37,781 nucleotides of DNA from Bacteroidota bacterium (GTDB lineage Bacteria; Bacteroidota; Bacteroidia; Bacteroidales; F082): positions 1 to 37,781 of the forward strand of contig CANNKD010000008.1 in assembly GCA_947505205.1 (NCBI GenBank), in the 5' to 3' direction. Positions 13,700 to 25,109 of the stretch are shown here, one piece after another (positions within the stretch are counted from its first letter, which is position 1; the number at the start of each line of letters is the position of its first letter). The position numbers and the translations under genes are program-made. Under the pieces are notes generated by a model. That model worked only from the letters and a program-made list of their open reading frames with translations, did no database searches and had not been told where the DNA came from.

Positions 13700-16600
13700 A
13701 TGAAATATTACAAGTTTATATTTTCTCTTATTTTAATCAATTGTCTGATCTTCAATACATTGATTCAGGCGCAATCGCGCACTGGAAGCACGGTTGAACA
13801 ATTCAGTATTGAAATTATGTTTGCAAATCCGGTTGTCAACCCGAATGTTTACAAAGCCCCACTCAAATACAACAAAGATTTTGCACTTATACTTCAAATG
13901 GATGATGAAACGCCTGCCATTAATGACGTTGTGATGCCATACTTCAAGGGTCAACCCCCCAATCCGGGATTGTTTTTTACAGAAGGTGACCCTGCAAGTA
14001 ATCAGCCATTCAAGGCTGAAGTTTCATTGTATTCATTCGACGAAACCGGAATGGACATTCATAATTATGTTACGGGTTTTTTGCATTGGGACAATATTAT
14101 CAATTTGTGGGCAGGTGAATTTGGGATGGTCAGCCGTGGACTTTCCAGTCCTCCCGGCACTGATAATGCTGTTGAGGTGCAACGAAATGCAAGTTATATA
14201 AAGCGAAAAACAAAAAGTGGAACCATTCCGGATGGTTACGATTTGAATGTTTTTGCCATCCCGCCTAATGGTTCATCTCAACTTGCTGAAGCAAAGGCAC
14301 ACAATCTGGCTGTTTTTAGCAGCACCGGAGCAACTAATCCGGTAAAAGTTGAAACACTTCCTGCTATTTCAGGTATTGAACTCAAGCGTAATTTGATTAC
14401 AAATAATCTATTTAATGACGTTCAAAACGTTGCAAATCAATGCAATGCATCAAACCACTACATAGCGACTTATTATAACCATGGCTTTGGGAATGGTGAA
14501 ATCAGTTTCGATGAGTTTAAATTGCAAATGGATCAAATTGCTGCTACTTATGGAAAAGCCGGCTCTGACAAGATTTGGTCAGGTTCGTCAACTGAAATAT
14601 TTGAATATCTGAGAATTAAAGAATTAGTAACGGTAACACAATCAATTACTGACAATGTATTGACACTTACTTTTACCGGAAATAATATTCCGGATAATTT
14701 CCGGTATTATGCTTCGAGCATAGTTGTTTTAGGAGAATCGAATATCGTGGAAATGACAGTTACGCAGCCTGATGGGTTATCAACCTACCATTTTTCAGGA
14801 AAAAATGCGCTGATAAACATGAAATGGAATGGTTATGTTCCTCAGGATGCCGTTTCGCAGGCAGAAAATCTGGTTACTTTGACAGAAACAGAAACCACAC
14901 AAGTGAATGGAATTGTGGCTATGGATTATGTACAAATGCTTCCTGATGGTGATACTAAATGGGCACTTCGCGATCGTTTATGTGCCTTGGAGACAATCGT
15001 TTACGAACCAAATTTTTGTCCATTAGGCGAATTTTTAGGCCCAGACGTTACACTATGTTTCGGTCAAACTATCGATTTTCAATTACCAAGTGCGGCCGGA
15101 TATTTATGGAGTACCGGCGAAACAACGCAAAACATTACATATACAGCTATGGCAACTGAAAAGGTTTGGGCACGTTTAACACAAGGTGATGGATCAACTT
15201 TGGCCGACACCGTGCTAATAACCGTGAATCCATTGCCCAATCTATTGATCAATCCCGATACCATTGCCATATTTCCAGGTGACGAAATCATTTTAAGAGC
15301 CTCGGGTGCAGCAACTTATCTATGGTCGGATAACAGCACTGCAGATTCACTTATTGTTTCACCATCAACAACCACAGATTTTACCGTTACCGGTACTTCA
15401 GCATTAGGCTGCTCAACAGATGCAACTTCACATATTGTAATAGCTTTTTTGGGTGATGATATATCACTTTGCTTCAATGAATCCATCGTACTCTCCGCAC
15501 CAATCGCCGAAAGTTATTCATGGAGTACCGGTGAAATCACGCAAAACATTAACTATGTGGCAGTCCAAAATGACACTGTTTGGGCTCAGCTCACATTTGG
15601 TAATGGTTCAACAGAGACCGATACACTCCTTATAACTGTGAATCCATTGCCTGAAATAACCATTAACCCTGATACGCTTACAGTGAATCCGGGTGATGAA
15701 GTCATTTTACATGCCTTGGGAGGTGTTTCCTATCTTTGGTCGAATGACAGTATTAGCGATACAATTGCTGTATATCCGATGATTACAACGGATTATTTCG
15801 TTACCGGAACATCGGCTCTGGGCTGCAAAAACACAGCAAACGCTCACATCATTGTCGAATATATTACGGATATAAATTTCACTTTCGACACAGTTTGCTT
15901 TGGCGACACCACACATCTTATATCACAAGTGACTTCGAACGATCCGGTTCTTATTTCGGAGTGGGATATGAACGGAGACGGCCTCTTCGTGGATGAAGTT
16001 GTTGGTGATACTGTAAAAATAGTTTTCGCAACAGCAGATGAACATTTGGTTGGACTGCGGATTAAAACACTCAGCGGAGCCATTCATATCATATATAATA
16101 AGGTCCCTGTTGCCGATTTCCCAATTCCTTCATTCATTTATGCTGGAACCTGCGAGGGACAAACAGTATTTTATTGGGATAAATCTACCGTACAAGTCGG
16201 GAAAGTTAACAATTGGACATGGGATTTTGGAGATGGCAGTTCTTCGAATGAGCAAAATCCGAATTATTATTATACCACTGCCGAATTATTCAATGTTTCT
16301 TTGATCGCCGTTTCAAGTTACGGTTGCCTTGATACCATAACTCAGAGCGTCAATATTATTCCTGCGCCAACCCTTGATCTCAGGACAACTGACGGAACAG
16401 CAGTGGCTTCAGAACAAACCGTAGAAATGGTTGCCGGAGGCAGCGTCGATTTCGAAGTGTTGAGTGTTTATGACAGTCTGGAATGGTCGGGAGGAGTGAA
16501 AACAGACGTTTTTCATGTGATAAATGCTGGTTATTTCTCCGTTGTGGTTTATGTGAATGCATGTAACAACAGCCGTTTTTTCACAGTTACAGAAACCGGA

Positions 16601-16876
16601 AATCCCCCAAATCCAACAGTGGGAATAATGAATTTGCTGACTCCAAATGGTGATGGCTTTAACGATGTATGGCAAATTCAGGATCTGGCAGGAATCAGCC
16701 CAGCCAAGGTAGCTATTTACACTCGTGCAGGCAATCTGGTTTACAGTTCAAACAATTACGACAACAGTTGGAAAGGATATTACAATGGGAATCCATTACC
16801 CGAAGGAAGCTATTTTTATATCATTGAAGGCGTAACAGGATCTGTTTTAAAAGGCACAATCAGCATCGTCAGATAA
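13700..16876 (+). CDS. large secreted protein: NodB/polysaccharide-deacetylase-like N-terminal domain, Ig/PKD-like repeats, T9SS type B C-terminal domain
   Basis: Signal peptide; YNKDFALILQMDDE...; ...DKIWSGSSTEIFEYLRIKELVTV; PKD motif WTWDFGDGSSSNEQNPNYYY; C-terminal LLTPNGDGFNDVWQIQDLAG...VAIYTRAGNLVYSSNNYDNSWKGYYNGNPLPEGSYFYII. Confidence 0.8.
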   Translation: MKYYKFIFSLILINCLIFNTLIQAQSRTGSTVEQFSIEIMFANPVVNPNVYKAPLKYNKDFALILQMDDETPAINDVVMPYFKGQPPNPGLFFTEGDPASNQPFKAEVSLYSFDETGMDIHNYVTGFLHWDNIINLWAGEFGMVSRGLSSPPGTDNAVEVQRNASYIKRKTKSGTIPDGYDLNVFAIPPNGSSQLAEAKAHNLAVFSSTGATNPVKVETLPAISGIELKRNLITNNLFNDVQNVANQCNASNHYIATYYNHGFGNGEISFDEFKLQMDQIAATYGKAGSDKIWSGSSTEIFEYLRIKELVTVTQSITDNVLTLTFTGNNIPDNFRYYASSIVVLGESNIVEMTVTQPDGLSTYHFSGKNALINMKWNGYVPQDAVSQAENLVTLTETETTQVNGIVAMDYVQMLPDGDTKWALRDRLCALETIVYEPNFCPLGEFLGPDVTLCFGQTIDFQLPSAAGYLWSTGETTQNITYTAMATEKVWARLTQGDGSTLADTVLITVNPLPNLLINPDTIAIFPGDEIILRASGAATYLWSDNSTADSLIVSPSTTTDFTVTGTSALGCSTDATSHIVIAFLGDDISLCFNESIVLSAPIAESYSWSTGEITQNINYVAVQNDTVWAQLTFGNGSTETDTLLITVNPLPEITINPDTLTVNPGDEVILHALGGVSYLWSNDSISDTIAVYPMITTDYFVTGTSALGCKNTANAHIIVEYITDINFTFDTVCFGDTTHLISQVTSNDPVLISEWDMNGDGLFVDEVVGDTVKIVFATADEHLVGLRIKTLSGAIHIIYNKVPVADFPIPSFIYAGTCEGQTVFYWDKSTVQVGKVNNWTWDFGDGSSSNEQNPNYYYTTAELFNVSLIAVSSYGCLDTITQSVNIIPAPTLDLRTTDGTAVASEQTVEMVAGGSVDFEVLSVYDSLEWSGGVKTDVFHVINAGYFSVVVYVNACNNSRFFTVTETGNPPNPTVGIMNLLTPNGDGFNDVWQIQDLAGISPAKVAIYTRAGNLVYSSNNYDNSWKGYYNGNPLPEGSYFYIIEGVTGSVLKGTISIVR

Positions 16877-17868
16877 TGGGAAATAAAAAGAACATAATGC
16901 TTGCTTTGATTCTCTTTTTTGGAGGAAGCCTGATCAATGCCCAACAATTTCCATTGACTTCTCATTATGTATTTAACGGATATTCGCTCGATCCAGGTTT
17001 TGCCGGAATTTTTACGACCGGAGAAGCCACATTTACCTATCGCAAAGACTGGACATCAATCAACGGAAGTCCGACCACTATCCGGGCAAATGGCTTTGGC
17101 AAGATTCATCCAAATATGTATCTGGGAGGTGAATTGCTAAACGACAAAGTAGATATTTTTAATCGTTTTAAAGCAAACCTCAATTATACATATCGGCTTC
17201 AGTTAGCTGATATTCAATATTTAAACTTCTCTTTTTGGGGAAGTCTGTATCAAAGTTCGATTAATTTGAATGGCGTAAATGCCGATCCCAATGATCCTCT
17301 CATCATTGATCAGACAAAACTGAATGGAACCGATCTCAATGCAGGATTCAGTCTGGTTTACAACCGAAATACATTTATTATCGGTTTTGGAATGCCAACA
17401 CTGTTTCAGACAAAAGATGCCTATTTGAATCAGGCAAGTGGTAAATTTGCCTTCGACCAGGAAATGTTGTTCCATATTTCGAATAGATTTAAGTTAAACC
17501 CCGATTGGCAACTACAACCATTCCTGATGTGGAGCCGAACCAATAATTCTCCATCCGTTATCGATATTTCCGCTACCTTATTTTATCTCGAAAAATACTG
17601 GTGTACAATGCTTTATCGTAACAGTAAACTGTTGGCACTGGGTATTGGCGGCGAGTTATATCGTGGACTTTCAATGGCTTATAGTTATGAGATTGGTATG
17701 GGTGGTATCAATAGTAAATCGGGTGGTTCGCATGAAGTGAGCATTGGTTTCCGGTTTGGCGCAAAAGAGAAGCAAAAATATGTGCCAAGAATCAAAGGTA
17801 AATCTACCGGACATTCAGGAGATAGATTTCCACAACCTACAGAATATGATATTAGGAGGGCTGAATAA
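16876..17868 (+). CDS. PorP/SprF family type IX secretion system membrane protein
   Basis: QQFPLTSHYVFNGYSLDPGFAGIFTTGEATFTYRKDWTSINGSPTTIRANGFG... is typical of PorP/SprF; position directly after a type B substrate. Confidence 0.92.
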   Translation: MGNKKNIMLALILFFGGSLINAQQFPLTSHYVFNGYSLDPGFAGIFTTGEATFTYRKDWTSINGSPTTIRANGFGKIHPNMYLGGELLNDKVDIFNRFKANLNYTYRLQLADIQYLNFSFWGSLYQSSINLNGVNADPNDPLIIDQTKLNGTDLNAGFSLVYNRNTFIIGFGMPTLFQTKDAYLNQASGKFAFDQEMLFHISNRFKLNPDWQLQPFLMWSRTNNSPSVIDISATLFYLEKYWCTMLYRNSKLLALGIGGELYRGLSMAYSYEIGMGGINSKSGGSHEVSIGFRFGAKEKQKYVPRIKGKSTGHSGDRFPQPTEYDIRRAE

Positions 17869-20800
17869 TGAAAATTGCACGATATAATATATTTCTCGCA
17901 CTTTCAATTACTGTCCTGATCCTTTTTGGACAATGGACGAATAGCTATGCGCAATCGCCTCCGGGCGATCCTGGCGTGACCTGGATTATGGTAACCTTCA
18001 ATCAGGCACCGACAGTATATAGTGTTGTTGAAACGCCGCTAAGATATAATAAGACTTTTGCAGTCAGTTTTCATAACGATGATGGTATAGGTGACATATA
18101 TACGGAAGGATTTCCCTTCTTTACAGGAATTCAGGTTGGCAACACAAACTATCCGGGTTTGTTTTATACCGATGGTTGTGGCAATGACATCTCCTTCAAA
18201 TTAAGCTCGAACTTATTCTCTTTTAGTGGTGAAAACGGTCCTGACATGCACAATCCGGGCAATGGATATGGTGCTGTAAGCTGGCCTCAACTTGATATCA
18301 TGTATAACAATGACTGTGCGATATACAACCATGGTATTTCGAGTGATGCAGGTTCAGATCCCGCATTTATCAATTATTCTATCAGAAGAAATGAGAGTTA
18401 TATCCGTCGTAAACTTTATGAAACCACACCAGGCGGTGTACAAACCAAAATCTTTGTGAATCCGAATGGAAATATTGCTTATTCGCCTATTGCTTTTGGC
18501 CTTGGATATTTTAGCGCACTTAATCAATATTCTCAGGGTGTTCTTGGTCAAAACGGTGGTGATGTGAATGCCTATACAAATTGGTTAACCCCTGTTGATT
18601 TATATCGTTTGTTAGCTGAATCAACAAATGTGATGCAATTAGCTGATTATATGAATGCTAACAGTATAAATGGTGCTAATTACTGGAGCACAATTTTCAC
18701 CCATTCGCTTGTAACCAACTATCCGTTAACCGATTTTCATACCGATTGGAATTATATTGCAAACACTTATGGCAGAGATGGATTGGATAATGTTTGGGTT
18801 GCTTCCGAAGAAGAAATCATTAGTTATCTGCGTGTGAAAGAGGCAACAACCGTCACGTATGGCCTTGCCGGAAATACTTTATTGATTACCCTTAACGGTT
18901 CAATCCCATCCGATATGCGATTTTATCCTTTGAGTTTATTGGTGAATGCAAATACTACAATCACAAATATCTCCTTCTCTGGTGGCACGAACACGTTTAA
19001 CGGTATTGGTCAAACATCCTCACTCATCAACCTTGAATGGGATGGCCGTTTTATTCCTGATGCAGCGACACTTGCAGATAGCATTGTCACTATTGCCGAA
19101 CAAACCCAGACGCAGTACGACTGCTGGATCGCCATGGATTATGTGTATATGGTTAGTCCGGGGCAGGAGCATAATGCCTTGCGTGACAGATTATGCGCAA
19201 TTAATGGAGTTACATACGATCCTGGTTTCTGCGAAACCTGCGATTTCAGTCTTGGAAGCGACACGACCATTTGCCAGAATAATTGCGTTCTTTTATCAGC
19301 TCCAGTTGCCACAGGAAATACCTATCTCTGGAGCAACGACAGCACCACACAAAATATAACAGTTTGCCCGGCAGATACAACAACTTATTGGGTTGAATTA
19401 ACAACCATTGGAGGTTGTATCGCTTCCGATACAATTGTGATTAATGTATTGCCGGCTCCAATTGTAAATATTGGTCCTGATCAATCAATCTGTATAAATG
19501 AAGTTGCCATATTCGACAGTCCACAGGATCCAACCTACACCTATGTTTGGTCTGCAAATCATGTTCAACTTGAAGAAACAACTTCACATTTATCCTATAC
19601 TGTGGTAGATACGGCATTAATCCGGCTCGATGTACATGTTCCGAATGGTTGCATCGTTTCCGATTCGGCCATGGTTAACGCATTGCCGATACCGGTTGTT
19701 GATTTGGGAGCCGACCGTCTTGTCTGTATTGGTTCTTCAGCCAGCCTGTCTGGTCCGGTTGACCCAACCTATAGCTATGTATGGTTTGCTAACGATGTAC
19801 AAATCACAGGAGAAACGACTGCACAATTGGTAATCATTATCACCGACACAACGTTGATCCGGCTTGAAGTTACTACACAGTATGGCTGCATGGCCAGCGA
19901 CACGGCACGGGTTTTTGCTTTAGAACTTCCCATTATCACTGTAACTCCTGAGTCTGCAACTTTGTGTTTTGGCGAGTCCATTGACTTGCTATTTGTAACT
20001 GAGAATGCAACCAGTTTCCATTGGTTTGATAACACTATACTTCCAAACCTGACCTACACTCCTCCAACACCTGATAGCATTTATTCTTGTTGGGCGATTG
20101 CGACTAACGGTTTCGGTTGTACAAAAACGGATACCGCCATTGTTAATGTGTGGGATAATCCTTCATTCCAGCTATCTGTGATAGAAGGCAGTGATACATT
20201 ATGCAAAAACGATTCATTGACATTAGAGGTTGTTTTTCAAAATACCGTCCCTATTCAATCTCTGATTTGGAATGATACTTTAACGATTACCAATCCAACA
20301 GGAAATACACATTCACAAAAGATAAAACCCACACAAAGTGGCTGGTTTACAATTCAAATTATAAGCACACACAATTGTATTGATACAGATAGTATTTTCA
20401 TTGATGTCGTGCCTTTGCCTGAGATGACGATCACTCCTGACGTTGAAATTTGTGTGGGCGAAACAGTTACATTAGTTGCGACCGGCGGCGAAAGTTGCGC
20501 ATGGTATGTCGGTACAGGGTTGATTTCCAATACCTACACACTAGATGTCAGTCCAGACACTACAACCACTTATAGAGCTGAAATTACCGGAAATAATCCG
20601 ATTGCCTGTGTTTCGAAAGACAGTGTTGTCGTCACTGTTCATCCTAAGCCAACTGTGGTTATCACAAGCACTGCTGATTCGACAATCTGCGTCGGTTCTA
20701 CCATCGATTTAACTGCAAGCGGTGCAATAAATTATACATGGTCAAACGATCAAACAGGTAATACGATTCATGTTTCTCCGTCTGACACAACGATTTTTAC

Positions 20801-21599
20801 AGTGATTGGCTCAATAGATTTTGGATGTACGGATACCGCTTCTATCACAATAAATACATTCGCAAAAACAATTGTTTCATTCACTGGACTCCTTCCTGTT
20901 TATTGTCTGAACGATGCGCCATCGCAATTGGTTGGCACTCCTGAAGGCGGTCATTTTTCAGGAGCCGGAATGGTGGCGGGCCGTTTTAATCCTTCACTCG
21001 CACTCGAAGGAATGCACACAATAGCTTACGCTTTTACAGATGCAAATAATTGTATATCAATTGATTCGATGCAAACATTGGTTATTGGAGGCCTTACTCA
21101 AATTGATTTGGGTCCGGATAGTACGATCTGCCCGAATGACTTTGTGTTCTTGGATGCCGGAACAGGATTTAACAGTTATTTTTGGTCGAATGGAGAAACA
21201 AGCCAAACGGTGGTTATTTCAGGAACAGACTATATGGCCGGTACAAGCCGCGAGATTTCAGTTGTCGGCGTTCTTGAAGGATGCACCGCCTCGGGCAAAA
21301 TGACGATCACCATCCGCAACGATTGTTTTATCGGTATTGGAGACCAGAAAGCAAAATCCGGAATTTCAATTATACCAAATCCTAACGATGGGAATTTCAG
21401 CCTGATTGTACCCAATGATATTGAACCTCAAAGAATTATAATATCAACAATCAGCGGTTTGCAGGTTTACGAACATCATTTTGCTTCACCATCCAATGAA
21501 GCAGTTTCTATCCATCTTCCAGAAAGATTGAAAGGTATTTTCTTTGTAAACTTACAAACTTCCAATGCTGTATTTACCTCCAAGTTGGTTGTGAGGTAA
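17868..21599 (+). CDS. large secreted protein: NodB/polysaccharide-deacetylase-like N-terminal domain, Ig-like repeats, T9SS type A C-terminal domain
   Basis: Paralogous N-terminus PLRYNKTFAVSFHNDDGIGDIYTEGFPFFTG...AIYNHGISSD...NVWVASEEEIISYLRVKEATTV; C-terminus ISIIPNPNDGNFSLIV...IISTISGLQVYEHHF...GIFFVNLQTSNAVFTSKLVVR. Confidence 0.8.
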   Translation: MKIARYNIFLALSITVLILFGQWTNSYAQSPPGDPGVTWIMVTFNQAPTVYSVVETPLRYNKTFAVSFHNDDGIGDIYTEGFPFFTGIQVGNTNYPGLFYTDGCGNDISFKLSSNLFSFSGENGPDMHNPGNGYGAVSWPQLDIMYNNDCAIYNHGISSDAGSDPAFINYSIRRNESYIRRKLYETTPGGVQTKIFVNPNGNIAYSPIAFGLGYFSALNQYSQGVLGQNGGDVNAYTNWLTPVDLYRLLAESTNVMQLADYMNANSINGANYWSTIFTHSLVTNYPLTDFHTDWNYIANTYGRDGLDNVWVASEEEIISYLRVKEATTVTYGLAGNTLLITLNGSIPSDMRFYPLSLLVNANTTITNISFSGGTNTFNGIGQTSSLINLEWDGRFIPDAATLADSIVTIAEQTQTQYDCWIAMDYVYMVSPGQEHNALRDRLCAINGVTYDPGFCETCDFSLGSDTTICQNNCVLLSAPVATGNTYLWSNDSTTQNITVCPADTTTYWVELTTIGGCIASDTIVINVLPAPIVNIGPDQSICINEVAIFDSPQDPTYTYVWSANHVQLEETTSHLSYTVVDTALIRLDVHVPNGCIVSDSAMVNALPIPVVDLGADRLVCIGSSASLSGPVDPTYSYVWFANDVQITGETTAQLVIIITDTTLIRLEVTTQYGCMASDTARVFALELPIITVTPESATLCFGESIDLLFVTENATSFHWFDNTILPNLTYTPPTPDSIYSCWAIATNGFGCTKTDTAIVNVWDNPSFQLSVIEGSDTLCKNDSLTLEVVFQNTVPIQSLIWNDTLTITNPTGNTHSQKIKPTQSGWFTIQIISTHNCIDTDSIFIDVVPLPEMTITPDVEICVGETVTLVATGGESCAWYVGTGLISNTYTLDVSPDTTTTYRAEITGNNPIACVSKDSVVVTVHPKPTVVITSTADSTICVGSTIDLTASGAINYTWSNDQTGNTIHVSPSDTTIFTVIGSIDFGCTDTASITINTFAKTIVSFTGLLPVYCLNDAPSQLVGTPEGGHFSGAGMVAGRFNPSLALEGMHTIAYAFTDANNCISIDSMQTLVIGGLTQIDLGPDSTICPNDFVFLDAGTGFNSYFWSNGETSQTVVISGTDYMAGTSREISVVGVLEGCTASGKMTITIRNDCFIGIGDQKAKSGISIIPNPNDGNFSLIVPNDIEPQRIIISTISGLQVYEHHFASPSNEAVSIHLPERLKGIFFVNLQTSNAVFTSKLVVR

Positions 21600-21655: not shown

Positions 21656-22630
21656 ATGACAAAAATCTTAGGTATTGGCAACGCTTTGGTCGATCAATTG
21701 ACTATTATCGAAAATGATGATCTTCTATTATCATTAGAGCTTCCGAAAGGAAGCATGCAATTGGTAGATGCGGAACGATCGGCAAAAGTAATCGAAGCAA
21801 CCAAAAATTATCAAAAATCAATGGCATCGGGTGGTTCAGCCGCAAACACCATTTGTGGATTGGGCAAATTGGGAACAAAAACTACCTTTATCGGCCATGT
21901 TGGAGAAGATGAAATTGGTGATTTTTTTAATAATGATCTGTTAAAAAGCAGTGTAATTCCACATTTATTCAGAAGTAAAACAGCAAGCGGAATAGCAAAC
22001 GCTTTCGTAACACCTGATGGTGAACGCACTTTTGCAACCTATTTGGGCGCAGCCGTCGAATTGAGTGCGACACATCTCACTGTTGATTTGTTTAAAGGAT
22101 ATGATATTCTCTATCTGGAAGGTTATCTTGTTTTCAATACACCTCTTTTCCTTAAAGCTATTGAGCTTGGTAAAGAAGCAGGTCTTAAAATCGCCCTCGA
22201 TTTATCGAGTTACAATGTAGTCGATGCCAACAAAGATATCCTCGATAAGGTAATTGACTCACATATTGATATCGTATTTGCCAATGAAGAAGAAGCCAAA
22301 TCATTAACTGGTCTCGAACCTTATGAAGCCTTGCTCTATTTGGCCAAAAAATGTGACTATGCCATCGTTAAAATTGGTTCAAAAGGTTCATTTATCGCTC
22401 ACGATGGAAAAATCACAAGGATTGACATCTTCCCTACAACGGCTATCGACACAACCGGCGCCGGTGATATGTATGCAGCCGGATTTCTTCATGGATTGGT
22501 GAATAACTGGACGATTGAGAAATCGGGTAAAACAGGATCACTATTAGCTTCGAGGGTGATTAGCCTGATTGGTGCCAAAATTGACGATAAACAGTGGGAT
22601 GAAATTTACAAAATTATTGAAGGGCTCTAA
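21656..22630 (+). CDS. PfkB-family carbohydrate/adenosine kinase
   Basis: GIGNALVDQL N-terminus; SGGSAANTICGLGKLG; DTTGAGDMYAAGFLHGL PfkB signature 2. Confidence 0.93.
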   Translation: MTKILGIGNALVDQLTIIENDDLLLSLELPKGSMQLVDAERSAKVIEATKNYQKSMASGGSAANTICGLGKLGTKTTFIGHVGEDEIGDFFNNDLLKSSVIPHLFRSKTASGIANAFVTPDGERTFATYLGAAVELSATHLTVDLFKGYDILYLEGYLVFNTPLFLKAIELGKEAGLKIALDLSSYNVVDANKDILDKVIDSHIDIVFANEEEAKSLTGLEPYEALLYLAKKCDYAIVKIGSKGSFIAHDGKITRIDIFPTTAIDTTGAGDMYAAGFLHGLVNNWTIEKSGKTGSLLASRVISLIGAKIDDKQWDEIYKIIEGL

Positions 22631-22973: not shown

Positions 22974-25109
22974 ATGAAGATATTCCAAACAGATGAGATT
23001 AGAAATGTGGCCCTCATTGGCGCTGCGAAATCGGGTAAAACAACCCTTTCAGAAGGGATGTTGTTCGAAGGAAATATGATTAATCGCAAAGGCTCGGTTG
23101 ACGACAAGAATACAGTGTCCGACTACCGCCAGATTGAGATTGACCGTCATATTTCGGTAAACGCTACCTTAATGCATACCATTTATAACGAAAAGAAAAT
23201 CAATATCATAGATGCTCCTGGCTTTAGCGATTTCACGGGCGATATTCAATCAAGTGTTTGTGTTGCAGATACTGCCATATTTACCATCAATGGTCAGGCC
23301 GGTGTTGAAGCCACTACTGAAAATGCATGGCATCAAACTGAAAAAAGTAATACACCTGTCGTGTTTTTCGTGAATTACCTCGATCATCACAATGCTAATT
23401 TCGATGAGGCATTGGGTCAGATGAAAGATTATTTTGGCGATAAAGTTACTGTTGTCCAGTATCCGGTGAACACGGGCGAAGGCTTCGATAGCATCATCGA
23501 TTTGATGTATATGAAAATGCTGAAGTTTAAACAAGGCGGCGGCGTAGCAGAAGTCTTAGATATTCCCGCTAACGAATTGGAAAAAGCCAAAAAATTGCAC
23601 AGAAGTCTGATCGAAAATGCTTCAGAAGGTGACGAAGCTTTGATGGAAAAATATTTTGAAAATGATGATTTAAGTCTCGAGGACACCCGATTGGGAATTC
23701 GTTTGTGTCTGGCACAACGTGGAATGTTCCCCGTATTGTGCGGCGCAGCCAAACATGGTATTGGAATTTCACGTTTGTTGGAATTCATCATCAAAACATG
23801 TCCGACTCCTGAACAATCAATGGGTCGTAAAACAACATCAGGCAAAGAATATACTTACAAAGTAAGTGATGCTCCTGCCCTGTTTATCTTCAAAATTTCA
23901 AACGAGCAGCATCTGGGTGAAGTTTCTCAGTTTAAAGTTTATGGCGGAACAATCTTTGAAGGTCAGGATCTTATCAATCCACGCACCGGCAACAAGGAAC
24001 GTATTTCGCAGCTTTTTGTAGTGAATGGAAAAAACCGTGAAAAGGTGGAAAAGGTTGTTGCCGGAGATATTGCAACCACCATCAAATTGAAAGAAGTCCG
24101 CACAAGCGATTCATTATTCGATCCAAAGGCTGCCGATGAACCATTTGAAATGATTCAATATCCAGATCCGATATTCAGTTGTGCTATCAAAGCAGCAAAC
24201 TCAACCGAAGATGAAAAATTAGGCAGTATTCTGCAGGAAATGCATCGTAACGATCCAACGATTATTGCCGGAATGTCGCGCGAATTGCGTCAGTTAATTC
24301 TGCAATGTCAGGGCGAATATCATTTGAACACGATTAAATGGTACTTCGATCATGTTCACAAACTTGAGATTGAAACTTTCTCTCCCAAGGTTCCATATCG
24401 CGAAACCATTACCAAGACTGCCAAAGCTGATTACCGTCACAAAAAACAATCAGGCGGATCCGGTCAGTTTGGCGAGGTTCATTTGATGGTTCAACCTTAT
24501 GTGGAAGGCTACAAAGAACCAACTGATTTCCCTGTTCGTGGCAAAGAAGAACACAAATTGCCATGGGGCGGTGTGCTTATTTTTAATAACTGTATCGTTG
24601 GAGGTTCGATTGATGCACGCTTTTTACCTGCTATTTTCAAAGGTGTAATGGAGCGTTTGGAAGAAGGCCCGCTCACCGGATCTTATGCACGTGACATCAT
24701 GGTTTATGTGTATGATGGCAAAATGCATCCTGTTGACTCAAACGAGCTGTCGTTTAAGTTAGCCGGCCGTCAGGCATTTATTGCTGCCTTTAAAAATGCC
24801 GGACCAAAAATTATGGAACCGATTTATGATCTTTCTGTTAGAATGCCCGAAGATATGATGGGTGGCGTGATGACCGATTTACAAGGGCGGCGTGCAGTAA
24901 TCATGGGCATGGATTCAGATGGTAAATATCAGATTATCAATGCCAAAGTGCCATTGGCTGAAATGGATAAATATTCAACTTCACTCAGTTCGATCACTTC
25001 CGGACGCGGTACATTCAAGATGAAATATGCTGAATATATGCAGGTTCCAACAGAAGTACAGGCAAAATTGCTCAAAGACTACGAAGAAAAAAGCAAGGAC
25101 AACGAATAG
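22974..25109 (+). CDS. elongation factor G paralog (EF-G2-like)
   Basis: EF-G domain architecture; P-loop GAAKSGKTT; switch II DAPGFSDF instead of DTPGHVDF; SGGSGQFGEVHL and RLEEGPLTGSYARDIMV of domains IV/V. Confidence 0.9.
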   Translation: MKIFQTDEIRNVALIGAAKSGKTTLSEGMLFEGNMINRKGSVDDKNTVSDYRQIEIDRHISVNATLMHTIYNEKKINIIDAPGFSDFTGDIQSSVCVADTAIFTINGQAGVEATTENAWHQTEKSNTPVVFFVNYLDHHNANFDEALGQMKDYFGDKVTVVQYPVNTGEGFDSIIDLMYMKMLKFKQGGGVAEVLDIPANELEKAKKLHRSLIENASEGDEALMEKYFENDDLSLEDTRLGIRLCLAQRGMFPVLCGAAKHGIGISRLLEFIIKTCPTPEQSMGRKTTSGKEYTYKVSDAPALFIFKISNEQHLGEVSQFKVYGGTIFEGQDLINPRTGNKERISQLFVVNGKNREKVEKVVAGDIATTIKLKEVRTSDSLFDPKAADEPFEMIQYPDPIFSCAIKAANSTEDEKLGSILQEMHRNDPTIIAGMSRELRQLILQCQGEYHLNTIKWYFDHVHKLEIETFSPKVPYRETITKTAKADYRHKKQSGGSGQFGEVHLMVQPYVEGYKEPTDFPVRGKEEHKLPWGGVLIFNNCIVGGSIDARFLPAIFKGVMERLEEGPLTGSYARDIMVYVYDGKMHPVDSNELSFKLAGRQAFIAAFKNAGPKIMEPIYDLSVRMPEDMMGGVMTDLQGRRAVIMGMDSDGKYQIINAKVPLAEMDKYSTSLSSITSGRGTFKMKYAEYMQVPTEVQAKLLKDYEEKSKDNE

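Follow-up and report, generated by a model that had tools for sequence, protein, structure and literature searches.

Layout and genomic setting of the locus

Examination of the window (the whole 37,781-nucleotide stretch of DNA that was analysed, from a Bacteroidales bacterium of GTDB lineage F082) shows three ORFs on the + strand at 13700-16876, 16876-17868 and 17868-21599, with one shared base at each junction. The original prediction of a coupled three-gene arrangement at 13700-21599 is borne out by this strand placement, the one-base overlaps, and the matches to domains and tails. The genes and their flanking features are as follows.

13700..16876, + strand: ORF1, 1058 aa, with signal peptide, degenerate PF15421 deacetylase-like domain, Ig/PKD region and type B T9SS signal
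16145..16354, + strand: ORF1 PKD domain, residues 816-885 (PF18911, E 4e-12)
16622..16873, + strand: ORF1 type B T9SS signal, residues 975-1058 (CHU_C, E 4e-22; TIGR04131, 67.7 bits)
16876..17868, + strand: ORF2, 330 aa, PorP/SprF-family outer-membrane barrel (PF11751, E 1e-44; TIGR03519, E 1e-51)
17868..21599, + strand: ORF3, 1243 aa, with signal peptide, intact PF15421 deacetylase domain, four Ig_7 repeats and type A T9SS signal
21369..21596, + strand: ORF3 type A T9SS signal, residues 1168-1243 (TIGR04183, 30.8 bits, cut-off 23)
21656..22630, + strand: PfkB-family sugar/nucleoside kinase, context outside the module, a conserved downstream neighbour (family in 35 of 74 loci)
22974..25109, + strand: elongation factor G2, context, a conserved downstream neighbour (NF058620 above cut-off; family in 22 of 74 loci)

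Both tail assignments of the original prediction hold, with CHU_C and TIGR04131 matching the end of ORF1 and TIGR04183 scoring over its cut-off on ORF3. ORF1 thus combines the TIGR04131/CHU_C tail and the adjacent PorP/SprF gene that mark type B cargo of the T9SS. Where present, the PfkB kinase family usually lies directly downstream. Three spaced patterns for a Bacteroidetes-type promoter gave no match in the 497 bases before ORF1, and no PorE-type anchor gene was recognised among the conserved neighbour families beside the triad.

The host genome contains the T9SS components SprA, PorV, PorK and PorL. It also has three PorPs; type B tails number three above cut-off, and type A tails about 130. 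A direct search of this genome with the deacetylase domain returned ORF1 and ORF3 as the only two matches. Of the other two PorPs, one is encoded beside a GldJ-like gene and one beside the PorK and PorL genes. In a PorP tree the triad PorPs group apart from these two, the exact place of which is unsure because of long branches. At L210:2032-4548, the GldJ-like gene directly follows one of these two PorP genes and scores 448 bits, just under the GldJ cut-off of 458.

Fold and active sites of the two domains

The N-terminal domains of ORF1 and ORF3 align end to end with 35% identity, and the blocks FAxxxxxDD, SYI+RK and EIxxYLRxKExxTV, previously proposed as common to the two proteins, are aligned between both. 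Against Polysacc_deac_3 (PF15421), the score of the ORF1 domain equals the curated cut-off (28.5 bits, E 7e-7), and the ORF3 domain alone gives a weak match below it (14.3 bits, E 0.015). A single-sequence search found BoPDA (4dwe) at E 0.0014; a 61-row profile of ORF3 relatives finds the same structure at E 5e-25, covering nearly the whole domain. The domains and their active-site codons are located as follows.

13763..15040, + strand: ORF1 deacetylase-like (NodB-fold) domain, residues 22-447 (AF2 pLDDT 94.3; best fold match 4dwe, E 5e-23)
14135..14137, + strand: ORF1 Arg146 codon, at the position of the motif 2 metal-binding His of ORF3 and BoPDA
17946..19259, + strand: ORF3 deacetylase (NodB-fold) domain, residues 27-464 (AF2 pLDDT 95.1; best fold match 4dwe, E 7e-25; profile match to 4dwe, E 5e-25)
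18078..18083, + strand: ORF3 motif 1 codons, Asp71 (base) and Asp72 (metal)
18330..18332, + strand: ORF3 motif 2 codon, His155 (metal), equivalent to BoPDA His213
18702..18704, + strand: ORF3 motif 5 codon, His279 (catalytic acid), equivalent to BoPDA His337

AlphaFold models of the two domains, built from alignments of relatives, have the mean pLDDT values listed. For both, the top Foldseek match is 4dwe, followed by other polysaccharide deacetylases such as PplD. The whole-match rmsd to 4dwe is large (12-13 Å), so the subdomain arrangement may differ; ORF3 superimposes on PplD with 2.3 Å over 158 columns. In distant members of the family the HSxxH motif is complete and the score exceeds the PF01522 cut-off, linking the family to classical NodB proteins. 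These results uphold the proposed NodB-like fold of the N-terminal domains. Six stand-alone type-A proteins (L102, L193, L194, L195, L197 and L198) carry the domain near residues 800-1240, with full HSxxH and no PorP nearby.

In the window, the classical His-His-Asp metal triad is absent, the second His of motif 2 being Ser in both ORF1 and ORF3. In BoPDA, Asp102 and His213 bind the metal and the catalytic His337 is retained (PMC11713874). In the profile alignment, Asp102, His213 and His337 correspond to Asp72, His155 and His279 of ORF3, in which Asp71 is the base. The ORF3 active site is therefore intact (DDHH): it has the Asp base, both members of the Asp-His metal dyad and the catalytic His. 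ORF1 reads DDRH: Asp68, Asp69 and His261 are present, and the metal His is replaced by Arg146. Judged from its sequence, the ORF1 domain is a homologue of PF15421 enzymes that is itself probably not an enzyme of the BoPDA type. The suggestion of two equivalent deacetylases in the window found no support, and two equal enzymes were rejected here because the metal His is missing in ORF1. An Asp126-x-His128 pair of ORF3 (window 18243-18251) is conserved in the majority of type-A copies and in almost every type-B copy, including those that are broken.

Distribution of the triad

The order type B, PorP, type-A deacetylase was found at 47 distinct loci, so the arrangement is not due to chance, and the proposed type A/type B split flanking PorP is conserved far beyond the window. 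With the NodB-like fold and this synteny, the prediction withstands both conditions originally set for its refutation. Tails in the survey were typed by profiles grown from the window's own tails, a sample being confirmed by Pfam. Two surveys of loci yielded 69 distinct genes for type-A deacetylases; 47 belong to full triads and 22 have no PorP just upstream. The type-B protein of the triad carries the deacetylase domain in 34 cases and lacks it in 13. At L134 it is the type-A gene that lacks the domain.

Within the window's family, 52 of 174 genomes have the domain, as do 12 of 16 genera. Matches were obtained in 46 of 393 sampled genomes of the order and in 14 of 388 of the class, many of them weak. 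The contigs of L101, L105, L109, L116 and L117 are labelled Paceibacterota, Falkowbacteria or Patescibacteria and may be mis-binned or represent real transfers. At L057, L058, L060 and L062, the triad is followed by a second pair of a type-B gene (about 525 aa) and a PorP gene, which looks like a local duplication because its PorP nests within the triad PorPs.

Evolutionary history of the type-B domain copies

The type-B domain copies sit in four places in the domain tree: one large clade that includes the window's copy, the other three being sets that nest among type-A copies. The starred branches of the tree force at least four changes between the type A and type B labels. A single clade of type-B domain copies was rejected (AU p about 3e-11). 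This polyphyly may reflect repeated capture of the domain from the type-A gene, or gene conversion or overwriting by it. Other lineages instead carry two domains within the type-A protein (L185; L083 and L088).

The nesting of type-B copies in three places is what conversion would give, and bears on the view that the three genes are merely co-expressed, in which case ORF1 and ORF2 make up a usual type B/PorP pair, ORF3 is a secreted enzyme unrelated to them and the shared domain is a by-product of gene conversion between neighbouring genes. The dispensability of the domain in the type-B protein of 13 triads and the 22 type-A genes without PorP fit this view as well. However, order and tight spacing are kept in the 47 distinct loci and the triad PorPs group separately from the other two of the genome, and we consider mere co-expression quite unlikely.

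Intact and broken active sites across relatives

The catalytic Asp-Asp-His-His set is intact in 55 of 58 type-A copies vs. 13 of 42 type-B copies (Fisher p 6e-12, uncorrected for relatedness); these are counts of non-independent events, the tree requiring a minimum of six changes of state among type-B rows and two among type-A rows. Among the 36 loci with both copies, the type-A copy is intact and the type-B copy broken in 22, both are intact in 11 and both broken in 3, and the reverse combination occurs in none. At 33 positions conserved in type A, the mean fraction kept in type B is 0.53 at the four catalytic positions and 0.86 at the other 29. Within this set, Cys104, Trp273, His155, His279, Asp72 and Asn154 are lost most often in type B; Lys62, Trp139, Asn388 and Trp391 are 100% kept. 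The tandem-domain type-A proteins of L185, L083 and L088 show a similar pairing, with a first domain reading DDHH and second domains reading DAFQ, ENQS and DQIN, respectively.

Retention of DDHH in 13 of the 42 type-B copies, and of the base and catalytic His in the window clade (DDRH), would suit a pair of deacetylases that both work but differ in substrate or metal, with another metal ligand replacing His146 in the type-B copy. We regard this as very unlikely, since in type-B copies the base, the metal Asp, the metal His and the catalytic His have been lost in many different combinations (such as NNNE, DNQS and ANRN), which looks like relaxed catalytic constraint, and no conserved substitute ligand is seen in them.

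Five triads (L067, L071, L074, L191 and L192) have no fully intact domain, suggesting that catalysis is dispensable in some loci; in L191 and L192 the sole deacetylase domain is broken (EDQK and EGQK). These triads favour an explanation in which both proteins are adhesins or stalks and the NodB-fold domains are only glycan-binding heads, with catalysis in neither. The absence of the second metal His of motif 2 throughout the triads points the same way, as does BoPDA, which was inactive on chitin and xylan yet bound both moderately (PMC11713874). Against it, DDHH is kept in nearly all type-A copies (the 55 of 58 above) across deep divergence, and activity in CtAxeA, as cited in PMC11713874, is compatible with a metal dyad lacking the second His. 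On balance, a purely adhesive role appears unlikely.

Comparison with known systems

Type B proteins are surface-bound to PorP-like barrels and PorV-independent, and their secretion and anchoring depend on PorP in other species (PMC9143113, PMC12618676). Type A proteins use PorV and, in P. gingivalis, are attached covalently to a glycolipid (PMC9143113, PMC12618676). From this published work on other species, it follows that ORF1 and ORF3 would differ in export and anchoring; the PorP pairing of ORF1 and the PorV routing of ORF3 are both inferred by this analogy.

The triad resembles SprB-SprF, PG1035-PorP and Fjoh_3952-Fjoh_3951 in having a porP/sprF-like gene directly after the type B gene. 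Unlike those pairs, it adds a third gene, a type A enzyme that shares its N-terminal domain with the type B protein, and has no recognised porE-like neighbour. In F. johnsoniae, the absence of a porE-like gene goes with mobile type B proteins; given the lack of a recognised porE-like gene beside the triad, a link to gliding is therefore possible, though unproven.

BoPDA (BACOVA_03992; PDB 4dwe, 9d44, 9d4i, 9d5t, 9d60) shares with the triad domains the PF15421 family, the fold and a motif 2 without the second His, and its Asp-Asp, metal His and catalytic His are all found in ORF3. However, BoPDA is a lipoprotein of a capsule locus, without a T9SS signal and described as unique to Bacteroides, whereas the triad branch is widespread in Bacteroidales and has Ig/PKD stalks, T9SS tails and an intact/degenerate pair. 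The CE4 pseudoenzymes BA3943 (6hm9) and EcCDA (2vyo), both among the fold matches, likewise combine the NodB fold with loss of catalytic or metal residues; unlike them, the broken copy of the triad is encoded next to a paralogue that is intact, and such pairing has more than one origin. Classical CE4/NodB proteins (PF01522; PplD, 6dq3) share the fold and, with the outlying stand-alone members, the full HSxxH, but in the triad copies the second metal His is missing and the domain is flanked by extra strands and helices.

No earlier description of the arrangement was found in the open-access literature searched, of which coverage was incomplete. The triad is a variant of the known type B/PorP pairing; what is new is the domain-less type-B protein in 13 of 47 triads, the distribution of type-B copies over more than a single clade, the intact/broken bias and the repetition of this pattern in tandem proteins.

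Proposed working of the module

We put at about one in two the probability that the locus encodes a T9SS surface module of Bacteroidales, in which a degenerate, barrel-held ORF1 is combined with a separately exported intact enzyme, ORF3. By analogy with PG1035-PorP and SprB-SprF, ORF1 would be exported by the T9SS, assisted by a PorP/SprF barrel of its own (ORF2), to which it would remain bound on the surface. ORF3 would take the PorV route of type A signals and then be attached to a surface glycolipid or released. Its CE4-type domain (Asp71/Asp72/His155/His279) is predicted to remove acetyl groups from an extracellular or capsular glycan, and the degenerate copy in ORF1, which has lost a metal ligand and mostly kept the fold, may serve at the barrel to hold or place either that glycan or ORF3. 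The pattern suggests that the barrel-linked copy is the grip and its intact partner the tool. The original prediction named exopolysaccharide or peptidoglycan as possible targets; BoPDA, the relative with a solved structure, was inactive on chitin and xylan (PMC11713874). Weighing against this module are the 11 paired loci with both copies intact-looking, the five triads without a fully intact domain, and the fact that no PF15421 member has shown activity, BoPDA included (PMC11713874).

A broader proposal, which we offer tentatively and hold to be possible though doubtful, is that Bacteroidales have repeatedly built an intact-plus-degenerate deacetylase pair on a PorP-linked module, as a type-B partner or a type-A tandem, in which the degenerate copy is specialised to grip the glycan or to dock the live enzyme.

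What is known of PorP/SprF barrels and type B signals comes mainly from adhesins and gliding. The conserved third gene, a type A enzyme sharing its domain with the type B protein, joins both T9SS export routes in one unit, and the BoPDA family now extends across Bacteroidales. The triads supply dozens of natural intact/broken pairs, and make it possible to test directly whether a pseudoenzyme held at a barrel guides an enzyme that is exported separately.
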